From Hydrogenobaculum sp. Y04AAS1 (lineage in GTDB: Bacteria; Aquificota; Aquificia; Aquificales; Aquificaceae), in contig NC_011126.1 in NCBI RefSeq assembly GCF_000020785.1, positions 1,302,001 through 1,366,000 of the forward strand: a DNA stretch of 64,000 nt, in the 5' to 3' direction. Positions 7,768-15,107 of the stretch are shown here, one piece after another. Every line of letters begins with the position of its first letter. Position 1 is the first letter of the stretch. The position numbers and the translations under genes are program-made. The notes under the pieces are model-generated. The model did no database searches and was not told where the DNA came from. It saw only the letters and a program-made list of their open reading frames with translations.

Positions 7768-8790
7768 TTAATTTATATTTCTTGTATGATATATATTTTG
7801 TTTTATAGCTTTTCCATAGAAAATAAACGCTCCTAAAAATGTGAATATCATGAAAAGCACGATAAATATACCAGCTTTGCCAAGAGGAATAGCATTGACT
7901 AAATTTGTAAAGTAAGCCTTTGGCATAAACTGCTTCGTTAGAATCTGTAGAAACTCCAGCATGCCTATAAAAAGGGCTATAAAAATACTAGCACCAGTGA
8001 TAACAAGGTTAAAAGATAGTCTTCTTATAGGGTCGTTGTTGGTCCAAGCATATATGTTGTTCATGATAAAAGAATCAAAAGAATCCATTAACGTCATACC
8101 TGCTGTGAAAAGCAGAGGAAACAACAGTATGCTCCATATATCCATACTTGTTTTTGCCAAAGCCACAGATATACCAAGTATAGCAATTTCTGTAGCCGTA
8201 TCAAAACCAAGACCAAACAAAAATCCTACTATATACATTTTGTAAGGGGCATCTATTTTTTTATACAAAAAGCTAAAAAACCTTCCCATAAAACCTCTTT
8301 TGTTTAAAAGCTCTTGAAATATCTTGTTTAGTTCTTCTTGATATTCAGAAGAAGATTCTCTATACATTTTATATATATCGTATAGGGCTTTAAATATAAA
8401 TATGTTGATAATACCTATGAGCGTTAGAAATAAAGCTGATATGAGAGTACCTACTATGTTTCCCATGTTTTGCAAAGTGGGTATGGAGTTTTTTACGGCC
8501 TTTGTAGCAAATATAAGAGCCACCGACAATCCTATAACAACGCTTGAATGCCCAAGCGAGAAGAAAAAACCTACGCTGTTGGCATTTTTACCATCCTGAA
8601 CCAATTTTCTTGTGGTGTTGTCTATGGCTGCTATATGATCTGCATCAAAAGCGTGTCTTAGTCCAAAAAGATACGCCATACCTCCTATAGCCAAAAGCCC
8701 CGGTATATTGTAAAAGCTTGTTACGAATAAACTCCATACCAGAGTGTTGAACACCAAAAGCCCAAACAGCATAAATTTTGCTTTTTTCAT
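7768..8790 (-). CDS. Nickel/cobalt permease, NiCoT family (HoxN/NixA type)
   Basis: High-affinity Ni2+/Co2+ importer in the cytoplasmic membrane. It has 340 residues with about eight membrane segments. The NiCoT signature RHAFDADHIAAIDN is at residues 45-58, and the other conserved motifs LGHSSVV and LGFDTATEIA are present. It lies 66 bp downstream of nikR on the same strand and close to a [NiFe]-hydrogenase operon, so its job is most likely nickel supply for hydrogenase maturation, under NikR control. Confidence 0.95.
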   Translation of the reverse strand: MKKAKFMLFGLLVFNTLVWSLFVTSFYNIPGLLAIGGMAYLFGLRHAFDADHIAAIDNTTRKLVQDGKNANSVGFFFSLGHSSVVIGLSVALIFATKAVKNSIPTLQNMGNIVGTLISALFLTLIGIINIFIFKALYDIYKMYRESSSEYQEELNKIFQELLNKRGFMGRFFSFLYKKIDAPYKMYIVGFLFGLGFDTATEIAILGISVALAKTSMDIWSILLFPLLFTAGMTLMDSFDSFIMNNIYAWTNNDPIRRLSFNLVITGASIFIALFIGMLEFLQILTKQFMPKAYFTNLVNAIPLGKAGIFIVLFMIFTFLGAFIFYGKAIKQNIYHTRNIN

Positions 8791-8816
8791 TCTGTTTCTC
8801 CTGAATGAATTATCAT

Positions 8817-8861
8817 TTATTATAATATTTTTTTAAAAAAAGTAATATAATATATATTATA
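8817..8861. promoter_or_regulatory. AT-rich dyads in the nikR-NiCoT gap (candidate NikR operator)
   Basis: The gap between nikR and the nickel permease holds a perfect 16-bp palindrome, TATAATATATATTATA (8846-8861, overlapping the nikR stop). It also holds a longer imperfect dyad centred on T7/A7 (about 8819-8852). NikR of epsilon-proteobacteria binds AT-rich inverted repeats, so an operator is possible. Very low sequence complexity makes this weak evidence, and the T7/A7 dyad could also act as a terminator. Confidence 0.3.
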
Positions 8862-9276
8862 GTTTTGAAGCTTTTACCAACTTAGCAAATTTAACGCCGT
8901 TGAGACCTGCTATGATGTTTACAGTTTCTACTATCGTTTGACTAGGACCTTTTATCATTATGGTTTCTAAGCAATTGTTATGATCTATATGTATATGCGT
9001 AGTACATAGAATGTTTATATAATGGTTGTGCTGTATATCGAGCAACTTTTGTGTAAGCTCTCTTTTATGATGATCATATATTATCACTAAAACCCCTATA
9101 AGCTCATTGTTTTCATCTTCCCATTCATCTTCTACAATGGCCTCTCTTATCAAATCTCTTATAAACTCAGACCTTGATGCATAAGACTGTTCTACTTTTT
9201 TGTCTATAAAATCTACAAGCTCTTTTGGTATTGTTATACATATCCTTTCAACCTTTGCTTTATCCATCTTTCTCAT
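8857..9276 (-). CDS. nikR: Nickel-responsive regulator NikR
   Basis: Ribbon-helix-helix DNA-binding repressor with a C-terminal ACT-like nickel-sensing domain. It has 139 residues. The N-terminal RHH segment is RICITIPKELVDFIDKKV. All four nickel ligands are conserved: H83, H94, H96 and C102, each offset by seven from the E. coli NikR ligands H76, H87, H89 and C95. An alternative start is the internal Met at 9267. It is transcribed away from a TetR gene only 14 bp off and upstream of the NiCoT permease, its likely target. Confidence 0.95.
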   Translation of the reverse strand: MRKMDKAKVERICITIPKELVDFIDKKVEQSYASRSEFIRDLIREAIVEDEWEDENNELIGVLVIIYDHHKRELTQKLLDIQHNHYINILCTTHIHIDHNNCLETIMIKGPSQTIVETVNIIAGLNGVKFAKLVKASKL

Positions 9277-9290
9277 TATATTATATTACT

Positions 9291-9878
9291 ATGCCAAATA
9301 GCAAAGATGAGAAGAAAAACCAGATTATAAAAGTAGCTTGTGAGCTTTTTGCTAAAAATGGTTATTACAACACAACAATGCCAGATATTGCAAAAGCTTC
9401 GGGCATGAGTGTAGGCAACCTTTATAACTATTTTGAGTCAAAGGAAGAGCTAGCAAAAGAAACGATGCTTACCGTATCAAGCCTTGTAGGTGAAAAACTC
9501 TCTTATATAAACTCTTTGAACGTAAGCGTTAAAGAAAAAATAAGCTTATTTGTTAGGAATTTCTTTGACATTGCAAAACACGAGCCTCAGCTTATGAGTT
9601 ATTTTTTAAAGGTTTTCTTGGTGAATAGAGAAGTTTTCAAAAACGGATGCGAAGGGTTTACCTGTGTGAAAGATATTGTTACGGAAACTATGATACTCCT
9701 TTCAGATGGCGTTGAAAAAGGAGAGCTTAGAAATCAAGAATTTTTTACGGCTTTTTCTACTATGATGGGTTCGATAGGGGGCATAGTGTTTTTATATTAC
9801 GAAGGTGTTTTGGACAACGACTTAGACTACTACGAGCCCTACATATCAGAAAACATATATATGGCTTTAAAAGCATGA
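9291..9878 (+). CDS. TetR-family transcriptional regulator
   Basis: Predicted one-component repressor of 195 residues. The start is set at MPNSKDEKKNQ; an upstream in-frame start would run into nikR on the other strand. The N-terminal helix-turn-helix is typical (ACELFAKNGYYNTTMPDIAKASGMSVGNLYNYFESKEEL). The ligand domain is not recognisable. Its stop codon overlaps the ATG of the hydrogenase small subunit (ATGA at 9875-9878), so regulator and enzyme are translationally coupled. No Shine-Dalgarno sequence is visible in the 14 bp before its start, which suggests a leaderless or very short-leader transcript. Confidence 0.9.
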   Translation: MPNSKDEKKNQIIKVACELFAKNGYYNTTMPDIAKASGMSVGNLYNYFESKEELAKETMLTVSSLVGEKLSYINSLNVSVKEKISLFVRNFFDIAKHEPQLMSYFLKVFLVNREVFKNGCEGFTCVKDIVTETMILLSDGVEKGELRNQEFFTAFSTMMGSIGGIVFLYYEGVLDNDLDYYEPYISENIYMALKA

Positions 9879-10759
9879 AAACGCTTTTTTGGATACAGGG
9901 ACTTTCTTGTGGAGCAAATACTCAGTCGTTTTTGTGTATGGAACACACAGATTTGTTTGAAAATATAGAAGTACTTTATCATCCTCTATCTGACAAATCC
10001 CTTGAAGAGAGCGCTAGACTTTTGTTAAAAGATGAAAAAGAATTAGATATCTTAATAGTAGAGGGTGCTATAGGTAAGTCTATTAGGCATGTTTGTTCTT
10101 ATAGTTTTTCAAACATTGTGAAGATCCTATCCTCAAAAGCCAAATACGTTATCGCTTTGGGAGATTGCGCCTCTTTTGGTGGAATCCACGCAAAGGCAGG
10201 CACCCATATTACGGGACTTCAGTTTAGATTTAAAGAGTTTGGTGGGCTTTTAGGAAAAGCCTTTTTATCAAAATCTTCATACCCGGTTATAAATATAGCT
10301 GGGTGTCCTGCTCATCCAGAATGGGTTTATTATGTAATAAGCGCTTTGTTGGAAGATAAAAACATAGAGTTAGACGATTTCAATAGGCCAAAGGATATAT
10401 TTAGGTATCTAACTCACAACGGATGTTTGAGAAATGAATATTTTGAGTGGAAGGTAGAATCAAAAGAGTTTGGCACAAAAGAAGGCTGTCTATTTTACGA
10501 GCTTGGCTGTAGAGGCCCACTAACCCATTCCTCGTGCAACAAGATACTTTGGAACGGTGTAAGCTCTAAAACAAGAGTAGGTACTCCTTGTGTTGGCTGT
10601 ACTGAGTTTGATTTCCCAAGAGAAAATATGTTTAAAACAGAACAGGCTATGGGATTGCCCAAAGAGCTTCCTCTTGGCGTATCAAAAAGGGGATATATAC
10701 TTCTTGCAGGTATTGCAAAAACTTTCGCTCCAGATAGGCTTAAGGATAAGCTCCGATGA
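9875..10759 (+). CDS. [NiFe]-hydrogenase small subunit, group-2-like, cytoplasmic
   Basis: FeS subunit that wires the NiFe site to its electron partner. It has 294 residues, with no twin-arginine leader and no membrane anchor, so it is cytoplasmic. Cluster residues seen are C in GLSCGANTQSFL, C in ALGDCASFGG, C in AGCPAHPE, the THNGC distal pair, and Cys in GCLFYELGCRGP, HSSCNK and PCVGC. In the first motif the second proximal cysteine (C-x2-C) is replaced by Asn, as in cyanobacterial-type HupS. It overlaps both the TetR gene and the large subunit by four bases. Confidence 0.9.
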   Translation: MKTLFWIQGLSCGANTQSFLCMEHTDLFENIEVLYHPLSDKSLEESARLLLKDEKELDILIVEGAIGKSIRHVCSYSFSNIVKILSSKAKYVIALGDCASFGGIHAKAGTHITGLQFRFKEFGGLLGKAFLSKSSYPVINIAGCPAHPEWVYYVISALLEDKNIELDDFNRPKDIFRYLTHNGCLRNEYFEWKVESKEFGTKEGCLFYELGCRGPLTHSSCNKILWNGVSSKTRVGTPCVGCTEFDFPRENMFKTEQAMGLPKELPLGVSKRGYILLAGIAKTFAPDRLKDKLR

Positions 10760-12075
10760 AAATCACTAAAACTATTTTAAACAGATTGGAGGGTGAGGTA
10801 GAACTAAAGCTCGAATACTCTAAAGGCAAGATAGCAAAAGCTCATATTCTTGGTACTTCGAATAGAGATTTTAGTAGTATTCTTAAAGCAAAACCCTATC
10901 TTGACAGTATAATATTGATTCCAAGAGTATGTGGTATATGTGGACATGCTCATCTTATGGCCTCTGTTAAAGCTATAGAGGATGCTTATAAAAATGAGTG
11001 TAGCGATTTTCATTTGTCTACAAAAGCTTCCCTTGTAAGGTATATAACGCTTTTATCGGAGATGATTCAAAACCATATAAGATGGTTTTATGCCTATTTT
11101 ATGTCGGAAATTCCAAAACTTGATAGAAATATGGTTGATTATCTTCCATTTGATGGTGAAAAGTGGAGAAGAGGCATTGCCATAAGCAACTATCCGATAA
11201 AGATAATAGCTTTATTTGGAGGTCAATGGCCCCATAACTCCTACGCTGTACCAGGTGGTATAACGTCTGATTTTACTTATTATGAGTTAAATGCAGCAAA
11301 AAGCTTTTGTAAAGAGCTTTTAAAAAGCATAGAAACTTATATAATAGGAATATCCATAGATAAATATCTTTCTTTTTCAAAAGATGAACTTTTAAACCAC
11401 AAAGAAGGTGATATTGGGGATTTTATAAGACTTTCTTCAACTTTTGACTTTTTTCATAAAGGCATAGCCTACAAAAGATTTTTGACGGGTGGATCTATAA
11501 AAGGCTATGTAGATGCAGCGGTTTTTGAAAACGGTATCAAAGAATCTTTTGATGTTAAAAACATAGATACCAAAGAGCATGAGTTTAAGAAGATAAAAGA
11601 GATTACAGGGGCGGTTTACAATAAAAAACGATTTGAGACTGGGCCATTGGCAAGAAAGATAAATTCTTCGAATTCTTTGTTTTTAGAGCTTTTAGAGGAA
11701 TTTGGAGATTCTTTGTTCTTAAGAGTTATGGCAAGAGTCGATGAAATAGTGTCTTTAACTCTTTTAATAAAAGATGCCTTAGATGCTATAGATATAAGGA
11801 AACCTTCTTATATTAAACCACCTATAAAAGAGCCTTTTACAGGAAAAGGAGTAGGTATAGTAGAAGCGGCAAGGGGCACTCTTATACACGAAATAAATAT
11901 AGAAAATGGTTTTGTAAAAGATTATAAAATAGTTACGCCTACTTTATGGAATCTTGGCAACTACGACGAAGATATGAGCCCTGCCCAAAAATCTATCGTT
12001 GGGCTTTCTTCCGATGTAGAGGCTTACCTATCCCTTAGAAGCTTTGATGTGTGTGCTTCTTGCGTTAGTTATTAA
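10756..12075 (+). CDS. [NiFe]-hydrogenase large subunit, unusual C terminus without maturation peptide
   Basis: NiFe active-site subunit of 439 residues. The N-terminal metal motif is RVCGICGHAH (C59, C62, H66). The C-terminal motif is DVCASC (C433, C436), and the protein stops three residues later in VSY. Most catalytic large subunits end DPCxxCxxH followed by a peptide removed by a maturation protease. Here Pro is Val, His is Tyr, and no extension exists, as in H2-sensing hydrogenases and a few others. It could be a group 2 hydrogenase of Aquificales feeding carbon fixation, or a sensor working with the coupled TetR regulator. The sequence does not decide between them. Confidence 0.9.
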   Translation: MKITKTILNRLEGEVELKLEYSKGKIAKAHILGTSNRDFSSILKAKPYLDSIILIPRVCGICGHAHLMASVKAIEDAYKNECSDFHLSTKASLVRYITLLSEMIQNHIRWFYAYFMSEIPKLDRNMVDYLPFDGEKWRRGIAISNYPIKIIALFGGQWPHNSYAVPGGITSDFTYYELNAAKSFCKELLKSIETYIIGISIDKYLSFSKDELLNHKEGDIGDFIRLSSTFDFFHKGIAYKRFLTGGSIKGYVDAAVFENGIKESFDVKNIDTKEHEFKKIKEITGAVYNKKRFETGPLARKINSSNSLFLELLEEFGDSLFLRVMARVDEIVSLTLLIKDALDAIDIRKPSYIKPPIKEPFTGKGVGIVEAARGTLIHEINIENGFVKDYKIVTPTLWNLGNYDEDMSPAQKSIVGLSSDVEAYLSLRSFDVCASCVSY

Positions 12076-12185: not shown

Positions 12186-14318
12186 ATGGAGTTATTTTTT
12201 GATGTAAAAACAAGTCTCCCACGGTTTACAAGTCTCCCACGGGTTTTAAAAAGAGACAACGTTACAGAGGTGGATTTTGATGTAAACAGGATAGAAAAGG
12301 CTATAGAAAAGGCCTTTGATGCGGTTTCGGAGTTTAAAGGAATAGATAACGCTTATATAAAAGATATTGCCAAAGAGGTGATAAGTGCTATATGTAGGAG
12401 GGGATTAAGCGTTATAACGATAGAGCAAATCCAAGATATAGTGGAAGAAACGATTATAGCGCATGGCTTTTCAAAAGTAGCAAGAGCTTACATAGTTTAT
12501 AGAAGAGAAAGAGAACGGGTAAGAGAAACTGAAGCTGGTTTGGTAAATTTGGAAAATACAACTATAGATATAGACAAATTGGTAAAAAATTACATTAGCC
12601 AAGAAGATTGGAGAACTTTTGAAAATTCAAACTCAAGTTTTTCTTATCCAGGTTTATATTTACATGTGGCTGGGTCTGTGATTGCCAATTATACCCTTAA
12701 AAACGTTTATCCGGAACATATCAGAAAAGCTCATGAAAGTGCCGATATTCATATACACGACCTATCTCATGGCATAGTAGCTTATTGTGCAGGATGGTCT
12801 ATGGAGGATTTGCTTAGGAAGGGTTTTAGAGGTGGTTATGGTCAAATCGTAGCTGGTCCGGCAAAACACTTATCGGCTCTTACTGGGCAGATGGTGAATT
12901 TTCTTGGTGTAATGCAAATGGAGTTTGCCGGAGCACAGGCTTTTAACTCTGTGGATACATTTTTGGCACCTTTTGTAAGAGTTGATAACCTTGATTATCA
13001 AGATGTTAAGCAGCTGATTCAACAAATGGTTTTTGCTATGAATGTTCCATCAAGATGGGGCTCTCAGCCACCTTTTATAAACTTTACCTTTGATTGGACA
13101 GTACCAGAAGATATGAAAAATAAACCCGTGATAATAGGTGGTGAGGAAAGACCAGACATAGGATATTATGGAGATTTTCAAAAAGAGATGGATGTTATAA
13201 ACAAAGCTTTTATAGAAGTGATGCTCGAAGGCGATTATGCTGGTAGGATTTTCTCTTTCCCTATACCTACTTACAATATTACAAAAGATTTTGATTATTA
13301 CGGCGAAAACGCTAAGCTCCTCTGGAAAATGACGGCAAAATACGGCACACCTTATTTCCAAAACTTTGTAAGCTCTAGTTTAAAACCCGGTGATGTTAGG
13401 TCTATGTGTTGTAGATTGCAGTTGGATTTGCGAGAATTAAGGAGTAGAATGGGTGGACTTTTTGGTGCGGCTGATAAAACTGGTAGCATAGGTGTTGTTA
13501 CCATAAATTTACCCCGTATAGGATATTTGGCTAAAACAAAAGAAGAGTATTTTTCAATGCTTTTCGAAGCTATGGATATTGCCAAAGAATCTTTGGAGAT
13601 AAAAAGACGCGTAGTTGAAAGAAACCTAAAAGCTGGTTTAATGCCTTATGCAGCCTCTTATCTCAATTCTTTTGATAATCATTTTTCTACAATAGGCATC
13701 GTTGGTATGCACGAGTCTTTGTTAAACTTTTTAGGTAAAGGTATAAACACAAAAGAGGGAAAAGCCTTTGCCATAGAGATACTTCAAAAGATGAGAGAAA
13801 GATTGAGTCTTTATCAAGAATTAACTGGTCATCTTTACAATTTAGAAGCCACGCCAGCTGAGGGGACATCTTATAGGTTAGCTAAGCATGATAAGAAAAG
13901 ATTTCCCGATATAATAACCTCTGGGGAAAACGAACCTTATTATACAAATTCTACTTTACTACCAGTAGGATATACCGAAGATCCTTTTGAAGTTTTAGAA
14001 CACCAAAAGGATTTGCAAACGCTTTACACTGGTGGTACCGTAGTGCATATGTTTTTAGGAGAATCTCCAAACGAGAATACTTTACCTGAATTTATAAGAA
14101 AAGCCTTTGAAACCTATCCCATACCTTATCTCACAATAACACCAACGTTTTCCGTTTGTCCAAACCACGGGTATATAAATGGTGAACATTTTAATTGTCC
14201 TGTTTGTAATGCACCTTCAGAAGTTTACTCAAGAGTTGTAGGTTACTATAGGCCTGTGCAAAGATGGAACGCTGGTAAAAAAGAAGAGTTTAAAGATAGG
14301 TTAGAATACATGTTGTGA
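12186..14318 (+). CDS. nrdD: Anaerobic (class III) ribonucleoside-triphosphate reductase
   Basis: Oxygen-sensitive reductase making dNTPs with a glycyl radical. It has 710 residues when started at the ATG at 12186, preceded by AAGGAGG at 12174-12180. An N-terminal ATP-cone (VLKRDNVTEVDFDVNRIEKAIEKA) precedes the catalytic barrel. A C-terminal Zn-type site (CPNHGYINGEHFNCPVC) and the glycyl-radical motif RVVGYYRPVQRWNAGK (radical on G686) are present. Residues 9-20 (TSLPRF TSLPRV) are encoded exactly by two 18-bp copies of the dispersed repeat, placed just before the ATP-cone. It is followed by its activase gene nrdG. Confidence 0.96.
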   Translation: MELFFDVKTSLPRFTSLPRVLKRDNVTEVDFDVNRIEKAIEKAFDAVSEFKGIDNAYIKDIAKEVISAICRRGLSVITIEQIQDIVEETIIAHGFSKVARAYIVYRRERERVRETEAGLVNLENTTIDIDKLVKNYISQEDWRTFENSNSSFSYPGLYLHVAGSVIANYTLKNVYPEHIRKAHESADIHIHDLSHGIVAYCAGWSMEDLLRKGFRGGYGQIVAGPAKHLSALTGQMVNFLGVMQMEFAGAQAFNSVDTFLAPFVRVDNLDYQDVKQLIQQMVFAMNVPSRWGSQPPFINFTFDWTVPEDMKNKPVIIGGEERPDIGYYGDFQKEMDVINKAFIEVMLEGDYAGRIFSFPIPTYNITKDFDYYGENAKLLWKMTAKYGTPYFQNFVSSSLKPGDVRSMCCRLQLDLRELRSRMGGLFGAADKTGSIGVVTINLPRIGYLAKTKEEYFSMLFEAMDIAKESLEIKRRVVERNLKAGLMPYAASYLNSFDNHFSTIGIVGMHESLLNFLGKGINTKEGKAFAIEILQKMRERLSLYQELTGHLYNLEATPAEGTSYRLAKHDKKRFPDIITSGENEPYYTNSTLLPVGYTEDPFEVLEHQKDLQTLYTGGTVVHMFLGESPNENTLPEFIRKAFETYPIPYLTITPTFSVCPNHGYINGEHFNCPVCNAPSEVYSRVVGYYRPVQRWNAGKKEEFKDRLEYML
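12210..12245. repeat. Dispersed 18-bp repeat, 2 units, inside nrdD
   Basis: Two consecutive copies, ACAAGTCTCCCACGGTTT (12210-12227) and ACAAGTCTCCCACGGGTT (12228-12245). The units coincide with codon boundaries and encode TSLPRF-TSLPRV. They match the family consensus, read in the reverse orientation, with C for G in CTGCC. Confidence 0.9.
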
Positions 14319-14324
14319 GGTCCT

Positions 14325-14394
14325 ACAAGTCTGCCACGGCCACAATATGCCATGGCCTACAAGTCTGCCACGATACACAAGTCTGCCACGATAT
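14325..14394. repeat. Dispersed 18-bp repeat, 4 units, nrdD-nrdG junction
   Basis: Four adjacent units: 14325-14341 (17 bp), 14342-14358 (17 bp, diverged: ACAATATGCCATGGCCT), 14359-14376 and 14377-14394 (18 bp each). They fill nearly the whole gap between the nrdD stop and the nrdG start, leaving no recognisable Shine-Dalgarno sequence for nrdG. Confidence 0.9.
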
Positions 14395-14402
14395 ATAATA
14401 AT

Positions 14403-15107
14403 ATGATATACGGTATACAAAAAACATCGTTTGTGGATTGTTCTGGGGTACCAAGCAGAGGTATCCAGCCGTCTTTGTGCACTGTTTTGTTTTTTGGTGG
14501 TTGCAATTTGCGATGTCCTTATTGCCACAACAAAGATATTGTGTTAAAAAATACAGAACCCCTTGATACTGACGAAGTTTTTGAGCTTTTAATATCTAGA
14601 AAACATCTAATAGAATGGGTATGTATATCTGGTGGAGAGCCTACCATATACGAGGACAAGCTTGTAGATTTTGTTAAAAACCTAAAAACAGCTGGTTTTA
14701 AAATAAAGCTGGATACAAATGGTACAAAACCGTTGGTGATAAAAGATGTGTGCGAGTTTGTGGATTATGTCGCCCTAGATGTAAAAACGATAAACTATAA
14801 GCTATGCAATAGCAGCGACGGTTTTTTTAAACTAATAGATACGTTGTGCTATTTATCAAGAATAGACAAACCATTTTTGTTGAGGACTACTCTTTATCCT
14901 CCTTTTGTGGGAGAATATTTCATAAGGTATATGCTTGATGTTTTTAAAAATCTTAACATAAAAAATATAGATTGGTTTTTTAATGCTTTTGATAACAAAA
15001 ATGTTTTAGAAGAAAAAGCCAAAGCCTATGCATCTACCACAAGCGAATATATCAAAAATTTGCTAAAAGATATAGAGATACCGCAAGATATACATATTCA
15101 CTTTTAA
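14403..15107 (+). CDS. nrdG: Anaerobic ribonucleotide reductase activating protein (radical SAM)
   Basis: Radical SAM activase that generates the glycyl radical on NrdD. It has 234 residues from the ATG at 14403 (MIYGIQKTSFVDCSG). The SAM cluster motif is CNLRCPYC (C-x3-C-x2-C), and the GGEP motif follows (CISGGEPTIYED). An upstream in-frame ATG at 14352 would add 17 residues read from the repeat units (AYKSATIHKSATI); family N termini favour 14403. It is convergent with dnaK, with a shared hairpin terminator between them. Confidence 0.93.
   Translation: MIYGIQKTSFVDCSGVPSRGIQPSLCTVLFFGGCNLRCPYCHNKDIVLKNTEPLDTDEVFELLISRKHLIEWVCISGGEPTIYEDKLVDFVKNLKTAGFKIKLDTNGTKPLVIKDVCEFVDYVALDVKTINYKLCNSSDGFFKLIDTLCYLSRIDKPFLLRTTLYPPFVGEYFIRYMLDVFKNLNIKNIDWFFNAFDNKNVLEEKAKAYASTTSEYIKNLLKDIEIPQDIHIHF

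Follow-up and report, generated by a model that had tools for sequence, protein, structure and literature searches.

At one locus of Hydrogenobaculum sp. Y04AAS1, a gene encoding a TetR-family regulator precedes the two genes of a hydrogenase without maturation peptide, which raises the question of whether this hydrogenase senses H2 for the regulator or acts as a catalytic enzyme. The initial annotation had proposed a TetR-linked H2 sensor, with a soluble hydrogenase for carbon fixation as the alternative. The window, which is the whole stretch of DNA analysed, contains 64,000 nucleotides (C1:1302001-1366000 of a host genome of 1,559,514 bases in one contig), and its relevant features are listed in Table 1.

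Table 1. Features of the tetR-hydSL locus and the best operator candidate of the host genome (positions in the window unless a contig is given)
Feature	Position	Strand	Remarks
nicO, nickel transporter, possible TetR target	7768-8790	-	PF03824, E 4.4e-84
Weak operator-like site, nicO promoter	8806-8819		10/12 positions, arms 4 of 6; by a -10 box and ribosome-binding site
nikR, nickel-responsive regulator, divergent from tetR	8857-9276	-	NikR also nearby in relatives
tetR, TetR-family repressor, proposed H2-switch output	9294-9878	+	194 aa; PF00440, E 9.5e-18
CEGFTC = CxGxxC (C119, C124), helix 6-7 loop, proposed redox/metal site	9648-9665	+	Motif in 85/85 orthologs
hydS, group 2d small subunit	9875-10759	+	294 aa; without signal peptide; Fe-S ligands arranged as in group 2a
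hydL, group 2d large subunit	10756-12075	+	439 aa; PF00374; no maturation peptide
FDVCASCVSY and stop, HydL C-terminus	12043-12075	+	2d norm is FDVCSVCTTH
Best regulon site, group 1 hydS promoter	C1:49451-49464		Candidate operator; outside the window

The hydSL genes belong to group 2d

The tetR and hydS genes overlap by ATGA, as do hydS and hydL, which confirms the translational coupling described for the three genes; the true start of tetR is its ATG at 9294. Sequence comparison assigns hydS-hydL to the group 2d [NiFe]-hydrogenases. HydL shows both CxxC nickel motifs and, in a large-subunit tree of 34 rows, falls with support of 100/100 in a clade with the 2d hydrogenases of Aquificota and Campylobacterota; this placement separates it from 2a, 2b HoxC and group 1. 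Both genes are under purifying selection, with a dN/dS of 0.163/1.00 for hydL and 0.049/0.88 for hydS against another Hydrogenobaculum, and the HydL of the same-genus genome G033 is 74% identical to that of the window. The clade (100/100) also contains Hase III of A. aeolicus and HupSL of Campylobacterota, the HydDB 'Aquificae-type', which have the same size, are cytosolic and lack a C-terminal peptide; the Hydrogenobaculum copy differs from other 2d by its long branch and its VSY end. HydDB leaves the role of 2d unresolved, with a reductant for carbon fixation or a regulatory role as possibilities (PMC5037454). No relative was found in viral contigs. Directly downstream of hydL are nrdD and the activase gene nrdG of an anaerobic ribonucleotide reductase (12186-15107). 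Many Aquificaceae and some Hydrogenothermaceae also contain a group 2a hydrogenase which keeps its C-terminal peptide (L082, L084-L088).

HydL ends in RSFDVCASCVSY, with three residues after the last metal cysteine and a V-S-Y end, as had been described. In 102 of 104 members of the 2d family the protein ends exactly three residues past the last Cys (in the remaining two the end motif was not matched); both the lack of the peptide and the Val that precedes the Cys thus characterize the family. Most 2d HydL proteins end in TTH or TTQ. VSY occurs in two of the 104, both from Hydrogenobaculum, and a functional meaning of the CVSY end is unsupported, this being a trait of Hydrogenobaculum. HoxC of C. 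necator, a proven H2 sensor, ends in CTVH at the same position; a C-terminal peptide is present in 2a and group 1. The absence of the peptide, taken initially as a clue to a sensor, thus stands and is shared with HoxC, but it is found in the whole 2d family and is not diagnostic.

Fe-S ligands of the small subunit

HydS shows an Asn (Asn15, codon 9917-9919) at a position which is Cys in group 1 and group 2b. This column is Asn in 99% of 94 2d sequences, and Asn at the proximal cluster together with Lys at the medial cluster are common to 2d and 2a, the Asn being present in Huc and Thermus. The Asn reported in place of the second proximal Cys is therefore a real residue, but as a mark of a sensor it is ruled out, since the H2-consuming group 2a has it too. 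The closest solved structures are those of the group 2a Huc of M. smegmatis, which has the same Fe-S ligand pattern as HydS; group 2a differs from 2d in being a respiratory enzyme with a cleaved C-terminal peptide, and a maturation peptide of this type is absent from HydL. All three clusters of Huc are [3Fe-4S] and of high potential (PMC10017518), and by analogy the 2d clusters may be in the same state, which would argue against ferredoxin reduction.

Group 2b, represented by HoxBC of C. necator with HoxJ/HoxA, resembles 2d in being soluble and without maturation peptide, and 2d is presumed to be, likewise, an H2 sensor controlling an uptake hydrogenase. The two differ in that 2b forms a separate clade and 2d is accompanied by TetR instead of a histidine kinase; none was found beside hydSL within the window, where TetR replaces the kinase and the NtrC-type regulator. 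HoxB contains 12 Cys and three [4Fe-4S] clusters (PMC5665086); in HydS, Asn15 and the Lys replace two of the HoxB Cys positions, so that the twelve-Cys pattern of 2b is incomplete.

The ligands bear on the alternative in which HydSL is a soluble catalytic hydrogenase providing ferredoxin as reductant for the reductive TCA cycle, with TetR sensing something else and regulating all the hydrogenase genes. Published work has suggested such a role for Hase III of Aquifex aeolicus and for Campylobacterota from vents, and the catalytic residues of HydSL are largely conserved. ATP-citrate lyase gives a strong match in 49 of the 67 Campylobacterota with TetR and 2d, which leaves a connection with autotrophy. 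However, the other 18 have no strong match, the Fe-S ligands are those of Huc with its three high-potential [3Fe-4S] clusters, and Hase III is difficult to detect in A. aeolicus (PMC10052474). We regard this alternative as unlikely, and the distribution of tetR described below is a further point that it leaves unexplained.

Linkage and co-occurrence of tetR and group 2d

The tetR gene lies directly upstream of the 2d hydS-hydL genes in 47 of 50 Campylobacterota loci from a scan of named genomes and in 17 of 42 Aquificota loci, counting in both cases loci with enough sequence. The same tetR-hydSL spacing is present in 65 of 67 unselected Campylobacterota genomes having both genes. In this phylum the group 1 uptake hydrogenase is usually located about 1.4 kb further on, an order also seen on two annotated plasmids. 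The arrangement, which had been thought to be new, is thus the rule for group 2d and not peculiar to the Hydrogenobaculum genome; a tetR upstream of hupSL has been noted once before, in Sulfurospirillum multivorans, and read as a hupSL repressor (PMC5357620). Adjacency of tetR and hydS is shared by the Hydrogenobaculum copy, Hydrogenothermaceae and Campylobacterota, and mostly not by Aquifex and its relatives: most Aquificaceae have the two separated, which counts against a joint module, and a tetR apart from 2d either immediately precedes group 1 hydSL or has hyp and nickel genes as neighbours. In one genus of Aquificaceae (L200, L201, L202), the gene directly downstream of tetR and ahead of group 1 hydS encodes a protein of about 283 aa with a PAS-like start, possibly an extra input.

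The two genes co-occur even when they are separate. TetR orthologs score about 290-350 bits when complete, whereas other Aquificota TetRs reach about 85 at most. Without correction for shared descent, 67 Campylobacterota genomes contain both TetR and HydL, two contain only TetR, one only HydL and 228 neither; the corresponding Aquificota counts, also uncorrected, are 54, six, three and 73. Among genomes with either gene, both are therefore present in 67 of 70 from Campylobacterota and in 54 of 63 from Aquificota. Several of the exceptions are accounted for by a contig end (G436), by TetR copies with stops (G345, G051, G057) or by the draft state of the genome (G002, G003, G072). Within the genus Hydrogenobaculum, G030 and G032 (locus L219, G032:C37) have lost HydSL and kept TetR. 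In G030 a deletion has joined the early part of hydS to the last part of nrdG, leaving a scar at about 9330-9530 of locus L203 (G030:C1:1292000-1311000); nrdD and nrdG were lost along with hydL, and tetR and the group 1 operator are intact. That TetR remains intact there after the loss of HydSL is a point against a joint module.

Group 1 hydS is still found in 31 of 40 genomes that lack TetR and 2d; the distribution of TetR therefore follows that of 2d, and not that of its apparent target. It is mainly for this reason that the 2d enzyme is most likely, on comparative grounds, the H2-sensing input of TetR. A reductant role for HydSL leaves it unexplained that TetR accompanies 2d alone, when group 1 is what it apparently targets.

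A candidate operator in group 1 promoters

A candidate operator was sought by word count and compared with shuffled sequences. The palindrome TGAATG-N2-CATTCA is present upstream of group 1 hydS in 16 of 25 de-duplicated TetR-positive loci of the Campylobacterota scan (at most seven in shuffles) and in 10-11 of 22 Aquificota loci (at most four in shuffles). Allowing matches at 10 or more of 12 positions, it is found in 71 of 77 group 1 promoters of TetR-positive loci and in none of 29 TetR-negative loci, which include close hydS relatives. Its position is usually just after a TAnnnT -10-like box. The refined site TGAATGAWTATTCA, with one mismatch allowed, has a single occurrence in the whole host genome, 13 nt ahead of group 1 hydS, with TATAAT on one side and the ribosome-binding site on the other; the promoter sequence there reads TGAATAAATATTCA. 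In Hydrogenothermaceae, palindromes precede hydS1, hypB (followed by tetR-hydSL), hypC and nickel-transport genes. From this pattern, TetR very probably represses or controls the group 1 uptake hydrogenase. The weakness of the nicO site in the window itself counts against the module. A second palindrome, TATAAG-N5-CTTATA, is found upstream of group 1 hydS in 10 of 22 Aquificota loci (at most four in shuffles); NikR is one candidate for its owner.

If TetR merely repressed hydSL, as suggested for S. multivorans, HydSL would be a conditional enzyme. The adjacency of the genes agrees with this, as does the low level of hupL transcripts in S. multivorans, where they are nearly absent (PMC5357620). 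In the same organism H2 changes group 1 transcripts little (PMC5357620); these data do not reveal an H2-dependent control of the uptake hydrogenase and count against an H2-sensing module. The operator before hypB-tetR-hydSL in Hydrogenothermaceae makes hydSL also a target in that family. However, the palindrome is found in only five of 54 regions upstream of tetR, compared with 41 of 47 group 1 hydS promoters, and several genera keep tetR far from hydSL and near group 1. In Campylobacterota, no common palindrome upstream of tetR itself rose above shuffles. Simple repression of hydSL is accordingly judged improbable. It is still less probable, and hardly credible, that the palindrome is owned by another regulator, such as NikR, with TetR just a neighbour: NikR is often nearby, but the palindrome is missing from the 29 TetR-negative loci and retained in the TetR-only genomes G030, G032 and G284. 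The nikR gene of the window is a member of the hydrogenase and nickel neighbourhood, outside the switch.

The TetR protein

The AF2 model of TetR shows an all-helical TetR fold with a mean pLDDT of 90.7, which decreases to 61 in block 111-120. The CxGxxC motif of the sensor domain is invariant in the 85 orthologs read, and C119 and C124 are the sole cysteines in 36 of 66 2d-linked TetRs. The helix 6-7 region of TetR proteins joins the ligand site and the DNA-binding site. Paralogs without 2d linkage have no CxGxxC; in Campylobacterota they are found at L212:3541, L214:7071, L209:12891 and 13594, L211, L213, L215 and L216, and some adjoin genes of a hydrogenase-like large subunit, possibly of group 4, and hypA. 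TetR evolves most slowly of the three proteins (mean distance 0.38, compared with 0.46 for HydS and 0.54 for HydL). Its closest folds and sequences are FadR-like TetR repressors. The operator of FadR is also a TGAATGA-type palindrome. FadR binds acyl-CoA, whereas the 2d-linked clade shows the invariant CxGxxC and hydrogenase targets. A literature search found nothing relevant about TetRs of a redox or Fe-S type, about the operator of FadR or about a TetR linked to a hydrogenase of Sulfurimonas.

A proposed H2-sensing module

Genome comparison establishes the tetR-hydSL module, its co-inheritance, its operator and its targets, and the module appears to be shared by two phyla, Aquificota and Campylobacterota. 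TetR and HydSL probably form one H2-sensing regulatory module which controls the group 1 uptake hydrogenase, and this would probably be a new variant among H2-sensing hydrogenase systems. Of the evidence for a TetR-linked H2 sensor, the conserved gene order in two phyla, the co-occurrence, the operator that tracks TetR and the invariant Cys pair hold, and the Asn and VSY clues of the initial annotation are weak.

We infer operator binding by TetR, H2 as the signal, the step from HydSL to TetR and the chemistry of the cysteines. TetR bound to TGAATG-N2-CATTCA over the transcription start would keep off the group 1 operon, which is located elsewhere in the host genome and contains hydSL and genes for cytochrome b, a protease and hypDEAF; in relatives TetR would also repress hyp and nickel-uptake operons. 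As a soluble H2 sensor, HydSL would take electrons from H2 when it is present and signal to TetR, probably at CxGxxC through a dithiol/disulfide or a bound metal cluster, and TetR would then leave the DNA and the uptake hydrogenase would be made. From H2 the path would lead by way of HydL and the clusters of HydS to the Cys centre of TetR, and release from the DNA would follow. A direct version, in which electrons pass via HydS straight to CxGxxC (as a dithiol or dimer-bridging cluster) of a one-component repressor with no kinase, is given slightly less than an even chance. In a variant, signalling would be by contact without electron transfer, and the conserved tail of 2d HydS could be that contact.

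The hosts of group 2d, Aquificota and Campylobacterota, are major H2 users of vents and hot springs, and the comparison provides 2d with a partner and an operator, as well as with a regulon and a mechanism at the level of residues that is open to direct test. G030 is a natural deletion strain for this purpose, with most of hydS through nrdG gone and TetR and operator kept. If the module is as proposed, both lineages would sense H2 by a TetR repressor and not by a two-component system, in a compact arrangement usable for H2-responsive gene control. If the direct redox reading is true, it would add another type to the H2-sensing hydrogenase systems, and group 2d would gain a function.
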